Assembly: GCA_002729525.1 (NCBI GenBank)
Contig: PBYI01000054.1
Coordinates: 124,001-188,000 of the forward strand
Direction of reading: 5' to 3'
DNA: 64,000 nucleotides
Source: Nocardioides sp.
GTDB lineage: Bacteria; Actinomycetota; Actinomycetes; Propionibacteriales; Nocardioidaceae
The notes beneath the pieces were generated by a model, which ran no database searches, was not told the origin of the DNA, and saw only the letters and a list, made by a program, of their open reading frames with translations. Of this stretch, positions 28,307-36,945 are shown in pieces. Each line of letters starts with the position of its first letter. Within the stretch, counting starts at the first letter, position 1. The translations under genes and the position numbers were made by a program.

Positions 28307-28365
28307 TAGTCCCTTACGTAAATCAAGGATTCAGGCCCTCGGACCTTGATTTGCGTTAGGGACTA
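28307..28365. repeat. 59-nt palindromic repeat, left copy (22-nt arm / 15-nt loop / 22-nt arm)
   Basis: tagtcccttacgtaaatcaagg-attcaggccctcgga-ccttgatttgcgttagggacta; 20/22 arm positions complementary. Confidence 0.85.
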
Positions 28366-28382
28366 TCCGGCAGACGCGAGTG

Positions 28383-29441
28383 TCAGGCCGCCCGAGCGCG
28401 ATAGCCGAGCAGGCGTCGCCGCTCCCCAGCGGTGAGCGACCTCCGGCGTTCGACCGTGTCGGTGGGCACCCACCAGGCGGGTTGCTCGACCGTCCACCGG
28501 CGTCCTGCGACCGGAAGCCGCGCCGCGGTCGCGTACGCGCCCTCGAGGTCGGCGACGAAGCGCCGGGTGTTCCGGAGGTCGGGCGCCATCATGGTCACCG
28601 ACACGATCCCGGCCGACACGAGTCCGCCCGTGCGTCTCACGTCGCGGTGCCGGTTGCTCGCCATCAGGTGGACGGCGCCGTCATACTCCGCGGCGACGCC
28701 TGCCACCGGGTCGAACAGGTCCGGCGTGGCGAGATGGCGCCCCTGCAGGTCGAAGACCGGGACGTTGCACAGCGGCGGTGGCAGCTGGCCGTCGCGAACC
28801 CACGCCAGGCGCATCAGGGTCTCGGTCGGAGACCAGCTGTTCTCCTCGCTCCAGCCGACCGCGTCGCGGGCCAGCGGTACGCCGGTCCAGGCGTTCTGCC
28901 TCGGTGTGAGGCAAGCGTCGATCTCCACTGTCGACACGAGGTCGTCGTACGCCGCCATGTCGGCCGCGACCACCGCCGCGGCGAGGTCATCGGCGTACCG
29001 CATCTCGTGCGACAACGACCAGCTCGCATCCGTGACGGGCAGCCCGTCGACCTCCAGCACGCGATGCGGCGCGGCGTTCTCCTCCCGGATGAAGATGCCC
29101 GCCTGGTGTCGGACGTGGTGTGTCCCGACCGCGATCTCGACTGGGCGCTGCGCTCCGGTGCGTGAGGTCCCGGAGAACCAGCGGCCGCCCATCCACCGGA
29201 GGGCCGCCCACCCGGTGACCGCACTGCCGACAGGGACGACCGGTCCGGCCTCGAGGATGCGCTGCTCGACGTCCGACGCCTCGACGTGAGCGGGGACGTA
29301 CCAGCCTCGCGACGTACGCCGCCAGTGACGCCCCTGGGTCTCGCTGCGCGTGGGTCCAAGCTCACCGTTCGGGTCGATGCGGACCGGCCGGACGAGGCCC
29401 GGGCGCGGCCCTGCGTGATGCGTCGCGCCGGAGGAGGTCAC
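28383..29441 (-). CDS. Putative nuclease with N-terminal AbiEi-like region and C-terminal DUF559/Vsr-like PD-(D/E)XK-type domain
   Basis: 352 aa; WVRDGQLPPPLCNVPVFDLQGRHLATPDLFDPVAGVAAEYDGAVHLMASNRHRDVRRTGGLVSAGIVSVTM matches the P-D-L-x-D...EYDG-x-H pattern of Vsr-like endonuclease folds. Confidence 0.6.
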   Translation of the reverse strand: MTSSGATHHAGPRPGLVRPVRIDPNGELGPTRSETQGRHWRRTSRGWYVPAHVEASDVEQRILEAGPVVPVGSAVTGWAALRWMGGRWFSGTSRTGAQRPVEIAVGTHHVRHQAGIFIREENAAPHRVLEVDGLPVTDASWSLSHEMRYADDLAAAVVAADMAAYDDLVSTVEIDACLTPRQNAWTGVPLARDAVGWSEENSWSPTETLMRLAWVRDGQLPPPLCNVPVFDLQGRHLATPDLFDPVAGVAAEYDGAVHLMASNRHRDVRRTGGLVSAGIVSVTMMAPDLRNTRRFVADLEGAYATAARLPVAGRRWTVEQPAWWVPTDTVERRRSLTAGERRRLLGYRARAA

Positions 29442-29569
29442 CGCACGACAGTCACCCCGAAGGCCGGCCCTCAGCAGGAGGCAGCGCGGGCCCTGTGGAT
29501 CGTGCGCACAGGTCGACCTGCTGTGGACGGGCCGCGGACGACCAGAGCGGCGAGGCGTACCGGGACCGA

Positions 29570-29628
29570 TAGTCCCTAACGCAAATCAACGAATCCGAGC
29601 CGCGAACCTTGATTTGCGTAAGGGACTA
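29570..29628. repeat. 59-nt palindromic repeat, right copy, inverted relative to the left copy
   Basis: tagtccctaacgcaaatcaacg-aatccgagccgcgaa-ccttgatttgcgtaagggacta; same 22-15-22 geometry, near-identical to the reverse complement of the left copy. Confidence 0.85.
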
Positions 29629-36872: not shown

Positions 36873-36945
36873 GGGCCTCTAGCTCAATCGGCAGAGCTGA
36901 GGACTTTTAATCCTTAGGTTGTGGGTTCGAGTCCCACGGGGCCCA
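36873..36945 (+). tRNA. tRNA-Lys (anticodon TTT)
   Basis: GGGCCTCTAGCTCAATCGGCAGAGCTGAGGACTTTTAATCCTTAGGTTGTGGGTTCGAGTCCCACGGGGCCCA: acceptor, D, anticodon (CTTTTAA loop) and T arms fold; CCA not encoded. Confidence 0.95.

Follow-up and report, generated by a model that had tools for sequence, protein, structure and literature searches.

The window, a 64,000-nucleotide stretch of a Nocardioides contig, contains a phosphate region in which ppk1, a DUF47/PhoU_div gene, a PHO4-type pit gene and the pst ABC genes lie around a minus-strand gene of 352 aa (28383–29441), placed between pit (PHO4) and pstB. A sequence-only reading of this DNA had recognized the phosphate setting, and we recovered the same neighbors. 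The gene is enclosed by two 59-bp palindromes, unstranded features at 28307–28365 and 29570–29628, the right one inverted relative to the left. Each is a dyad of two 22-bp half-sites around a 15-bp spacer or, drawn as a hairpin, a 22-nt arm, a 15-nt loop and a 22-nt arm. Both palindromes occur exactly where that reading had placed them, with the layout it had given, and form an inverted pair that is 81% complementary over 63 nt; its description of the copies as near-identical holds for the arms but not for the loops, which are not conserved between copies. The stretch upstream of the gene up to the right palindrome (29442–29569, minus strand) is presumed to hold the promoter, and scans of the palindrome-gene-palindrome unit, this upstream region included, returned no sigma-70 or terminator consensus. 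An Rfam scan of the window gave no match in the palindromes, its sole match being a tRNA gene at 36873–36945.

The window protein matched no Pfam, NCBIfam or PADLOC model, and a PDB sequence search with it gave no match. DUF559 (PF04480) scored above the Pfam gathering threshold neither in this protein nor in the other 26 members of a 27-member family alignment, in which E207, D241, H258 and D267, among other residues, are invariant. These four residues belong to a nuclease-like C-terminal domain (approximately residues 200–300; 28542–28844, minus strand), for which a Vsr/DUF559/EDxHD fold is predicted from a structural model and from fold matches. The AlphaFold2 model of the protein was a confident one, with a mean pLDDT of 89.6 and a pTM of 0.88. 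Its C-terminal domain matched Vsr and DUF559 models of viral proteins, at a probability of up to 1.00 and an E-value of 1.9e-3 at best, as well as the catalytic domain of the EDxHD homing endonuclease I-Bth0305I (3r3p; probability 0.85, E 0.48) and the endonuclease-like NGO0050 (3hrl; probability 0.41). As model-based evidence these matches appear weak in E-value yet consistent, all of them falling on the C-terminal domain, and together with the invariant residues they suggest a Vsr/EDxHD-like active site. Distant homologues within the order match DUF559 directly and AbiEi_1 weakly.

Family members are common in the genus: homologues were found in 127 of 150 Nocardioides genomes at E ≤ 1e-30, with one to five copies each, and none was found in the plasmids and viral contigs searched. 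The host genome (G000; 5.02 Mb, 71 contigs) has only two family genes, the window gene and a paralogue (C41), which are 53% identical, and the near-identical multicopy units that are a classical insertion-sequence trait are absent.

Searching the host genome with the left palindrome copy recovered some 15 sites, with E-values down to 2.5e-18, besides the right copy (E 1e-12 to 4e-13). Because of these further genomic matches, the left and right palindromes are not a product of chance, and the palindrome is clearly not restricted to one locus. Because most of the genomic copies are solo, the palindromes are dispersed cognate elements and not terminal repeats private to the unit, contrary to the earlier reading that they behave like terminal inverted repeats. 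Arms are conserved among these copies and the 15-nt loops are not, so the suggestion that the loops are related fails genome-wide. The asymmetry noted at arm position 9, T in one arm and A in the other, is found in about 6 of the 15 genomic copies, and five are symmetric C/C. In relatives, up to 37 copies per genome were found (reversed control pattern, 0), and genomes of another clade carry 2–27. Closely spaced or tandem palindromes or half-sites were seen in four genomes (G180, locus L239; G175, L226; G057, L049; G174, L086), and at L239 three palindrome copies stand in a row.

The genomic copies tend to lie behind genes. Flanks were readable for 172 palindromes. At 149 of these, one or more coding frames end toward the palindrome, and at 61 two do. 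We considered whether the TAG at the palindrome tip usually serves as the stop codon of the neighboring gene and rejected the idea: the count of 87/357 sides without filtering shrank to 27/218 gene ends once a coding filter was applied.

The association between palindromes and the protein family was assessed with a strict bracketing test, in which the left and right palindromes had to match each other. Mutually matching palindromes bracketed 59 of 74 core loci in testable relatives and 14 of 20 intermediate loci, as compared to 0 of 290 control positions. Hence, the palindromes do not flank unrelated genes at random, an outcome that the sequence-only reading had named as one that would speak against it. 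The 30 distant DUF559/AbiEi-like homologues came from elsewhere in the order, from other genera and families; 15 of them were bracketed (controls 0/280) by palindromes of different sequences and lengths. Near the gene, hairpins occurred at 2.72 per kb, and in the remainder of the same loci at 0.077 per kb. At two loci (L098 and L104) the gene appears, by flank comparison, to be inverted at the pit-pstB site, and palindromes were not detectable there; an inversion followed by decay is possible.

Each protein lineage appears with its own palindrome. The two copies at one locus matched each other with a score of 43, as compared to 12 for copies from different loci, and protein distance correlated with palindrome distance over 68 non-redundant loci (Mantel r 0.52; 0/2000 permutations) as well as over the 27 loci at the pit-pstB site alone (r 0.62; 0/2000 permutations). 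This co-divergence partly reflects shared descent. Paralogues within one genome carry unlike palindromes; for the second paralogue of the host genome (C41) a separate family, GGAAGTGGACGTTTCC..., was found at about six sites. When several comparisons rather than one dedicated count are combined, then among the relatives compared AGTCCCTNACG-type copies are found genome-wide where the family gene is flanked by the AGTCCCTNACG type and are absent from nearly all genomes whose gene has another flanking type, the exception being G083, which has a second paralogue. The clade with TATCTAGGGACG and AGTTAGGGACG palindromes differs in that the upstream palindrome has a conserved loop (about GATCGGGGGTT), which other loops are not; this was seen at L077, L085, L109, L121, L126, L093 and L097.

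We next consider what kind of element the palindrome is. Of 187 copies, 153 measure exactly 59 in length. [G]TAGTCC opens most of the arms, and TCGTAC or a similar sequence a few of them; this tag is paired inside the palindrome. Within a genome the half-site is bipartite: its outer block, of about 12 bp, is conserved, 3–4 variable bp follow, and a partly conserved inner block precedes the spacer; across families the palindrome center shows a weak GGCC preference. A conserved hairpin, whether of RNA or of single-stranded DNA, should show excess matching between the arms of one copy. In five genomes the observed and permuted numbers of within-copy arm matches were 113 versus 116, 57 versus 65, 37 versus 40, 72 versus 74 and 54 versus 59, counted over variable positions only, as the first nine positions are fixed by the search pattern and are uninformative. 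We therefore rejected a hairpin or RNA structure as the conserved feature. The comparison of arms suggests that they do not covary, and a duplex DNA dyad of two independently recognized half-sites appears to fit better than a hairpin.

Full palindromes are also adjoined by 27 extra single half-sites, all outward-facing (control stretches, 0) and nearly all at distances of 21–22 or 31–32 bp, with one at 41 and two at 64 and 73; around the family gene they are found on the outside. Either central cutting of an older palindrome, leaving its halves, or tandem slippage could have produced them; the one at L226 looks like slippage. As related species share some of the 27, independent events are few.

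An alternative would have the palindromes insulate the gene, either as bidirectional transcription terminators or as RNA hairpins. Their position just downstream of genes speaks for this, but the scanned region holds no terminator-like site, Rfam gave no match, the arms do not covary, and the sequence is private to each protein lineage. A terminator would also leave the co-divergence of protein and site unexplained, and we regard this explanation as very improbable.

Comparison of orthologous sites indicates that both palindromes and whole units vary in position. Of approximately 81 family loci, 39 lie at pit-pstB by both flanks and 12 at a second site, the others being elsewhere or at a contig end. 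Members at pit-pstB are spread through the protein tree, with at least 14 changes between this site and elsewhere; in several relatives pit-pstB lacks the gene, and in one of them (G032) it holds a solo palindrome. The possibility raised earlier, that all relatives carry the gene at the same syntenic position, is thus borne out for about half of the loci only, and position otherwise varies. A comparison of filled and empty loci was informative at a site flanked by genes for a LuxR-type regulator and an ABC transporter (labels read from flanking translations): four genomes have the complete unit there, and in three others 10–16 bp separate the stop codons with no unit between them. Solo copies vary likewise. 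At one solo-copy site of the N. furvisabuli group, G176 has no palindrome, G174, G175, G180 and G181 have the TAGTCCACCGGG type, and G172, G173, G177, G178 and G179 have other palindrome families. A short intergenic gap between convergent genes (L225, 13050–13320; orthologous in L228–L239) carries palindromes of five or more families across related species and none in one of them. Either such gaps are hot spots or palindromes have been replaced in place.

These genome comparisons show that palindromes spread and that the unit occasionally relocates. A classical cut-and-paste transposon, with the palindromes as its terminal inverted repeats, would account for a unit that is present or absent at one site and for the 14 or more changes of gene site on the tree. 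However, most copies are solo palindromes, the one to five gene copies per genome are divergent with no identical multicopy units, and the family is absent from the plasmids and viral contigs searched. Nor was a target-site duplication found at the filled and empty sites compared, where no exact insertion boundary was definable. We consider such a transposon highly unlikely. The unit is mostly a long-term resident that relocates occasionally, not an actively hopping insertion sequence. The original proposal of a palindrome-plus-nuclease selfish unit, resembling REPIN/RAYT with a different protein, is supported by the dispersal, the association with the family and the variable position.

The palindromes might instead be fixed operator or architectural sites, serving a regulon or acting as a barrier between convergent genes, with the nuclease fold kept for binding and nothing mobile. 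A duplex dyad without arm covariation would suit this role, the extra half-sites in steps of about 10 bp suggest cooperative binding, and at most copies one or both neighboring genes end toward the palindrome (149/172; both at 61). Weighing against it, the catalytic set is invariant in 27 members, the number and positions of palindromes vary widely, and orthologous sites can be empty or occupied by other palindrome types, with whole units present or absent. On balance, fixed sites of this kind seem unlikely.

To our knowledge, a resident enzyme gene accompanied by a population of short cognate palindromes has been described mainly for REPIN/RAYT pairs. In these REPtron or TnpA-REP systems a resident gene is flanked by repeats, non-autonomous palindromes are dispersed in the genome, and each enzyme lineage has a private repeat (PMC3116915, PMC3733652, PMC8266576). 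The likeness to the present system is considerable: a resident chromosomal gene is flanked by short palindromes with many dispersed extragenic copies, two conserved inverted half-sequences enclose a variable spacer of fixed length, and paralogues of one genome each have their own repeat. This shared anatomy is what would favor a RAYT-like process, in which an enzyme that works on folded single-stranded DNA moves the palindromes as hairpins. Yet the Y1 transposase domain (PF01797) was found in 0 of 12 palindrome-bearing genomes, the host included, while 5 of 14 control genomes were positive. The enzyme associated with the palindromes has the predicted fold of a nuclease rather than of a Y1/HUH transposase, and the arms of one copy do not covary. 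We judge a RAYT-like process improbable. There are further differences. The repeat appears to behave as a duplex dyad, a recognition mode read from the sequence, and copies number in the tens, not hundreds. The GTAG or CGTC tag, which is unpaired at the hairpin foot in REPINs, would correspond here to the paired tag at the arm start. The system is therefore not a member of REPIN/RAYT, as the Y1 transposase is absent and both the enzyme and the recognition mode differ, even though the population anatomy is alike.

The explanation we favor, at a probability of roughly 60%, is that the gene encodes a DNA-binding, dimeric Vsr/EDxHD nuclease that has the 59-bp duplex dyad as its cognate site, accompanied by a REPIN-like population of sites. 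To the observed bracketing, dispersal, protein-site co-divergence, filled and empty sites, fixed length and absence of RAYT, we would add, by inference, dimer binding to duplex DNA, central cleavage and nuclease-driven copying. In this scheme a nuclease dimer would bind the dyad so that each subunit contacts one half-site; the half-sites are bipartite, about 22 bp long, and lie on either side of the non-conserved 15-bp spacer. The cognate nuclease would cut near the dyad center, and the break would then be repaired by copying in a palindrome or, in rare cases, the entire palindrome-gene-palindrome unit. Short non-autonomous sites would in this way multiply in the genome, mostly between gene 3′ ends, with two of them bracketing the nuclease gene. 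As protein and half-site diverge together, each lineage and paralogue would come to have a private palindrome. Binding of a dimer to a dyad agrees with the fixed length and unconserved spacer, with the lack of arm covariation and with the phased extra half-sites.

The closest sensible PDB fold match offers a partial parallel. I-Bth0305I has a compatible E-D-H-D set and is reported to dimerize on a target of nearly 60 bp (PMC3943268), the same size as the 59-bp dyad. Unlike an enzyme of this type, the window gene is in neither an intron nor a phage, it does not interrupt its site, and its presumed target is multicopy and extragenic. The location of the gene between two intact presumed targets counts against the nuclease-and-dyad reading, as a classical homing enzyme would cut them.

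The distant DUF559/AbiEi-like homologues, multicopy actinobacterial proteins of which half of those examined are palindrome-bracketed, raise a broader possibility, although the window protein itself matches no Pfam or PADLOC defense model. Actinobacterial nucleases of the Vsr/DUF559-fold superfamily may constitute selfish or domesticated site-nuclease systems, each with a private duplex palindrome, a central cut and copying of palindromes or of the bracketed gene into new and existing sites. We hold this generalization tentatively, at slightly less than even odds; if true, it would amount to an enzyme-independent reinvention of the REPIN lifestyle by a nuclease superfamily. In the open-licence literature we found no paper linking DUF559/AbiEi-like proteins to palindromes and no published description of the palindrome-nuclease system. 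This widespread, undescribed pairing of a nuclease with cognate palindromes looks like an independent counterpart of REPIN/RAYT built on a different enzyme. Why REPIN/RAYT pairs persist is an open question (PMC3116915), and with another, unrelated enzyme showing the same population structure, the essential parts of such a pairing can be compared directly. The pairing also provides functional context for a large set of unannotated actinobacterial nucleases, and its dozens of diverged protein-site pairs form a natural data set for decoding the specificity of Vsr-fold nucleases for a site of about 60 bp.

Three individual loci showed unusual arrangements. The pit-pstB gap at L186 (G021), approximately 1.3 kb long, holds a seemingly different gene with inverted repeats of its own nearby; this gene is possibly a broken DUF559/AbiEi-like gene with an internal stop. 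At L353 (G142), the site that carries the unit in G148 holds a solo palindrome whose type (GGTTCAACTACCGAATTCGTC) is unrelated and which may stem from a different nuclease of this superfamily. Finally, at L357 (G148) a remnant half-site of the G033 type (TAGTCCCGGGTCA) lies immediately to the right of the right palindrome, next to palindromes of the current type, which hints that one palindrome type was replaced by another in place.
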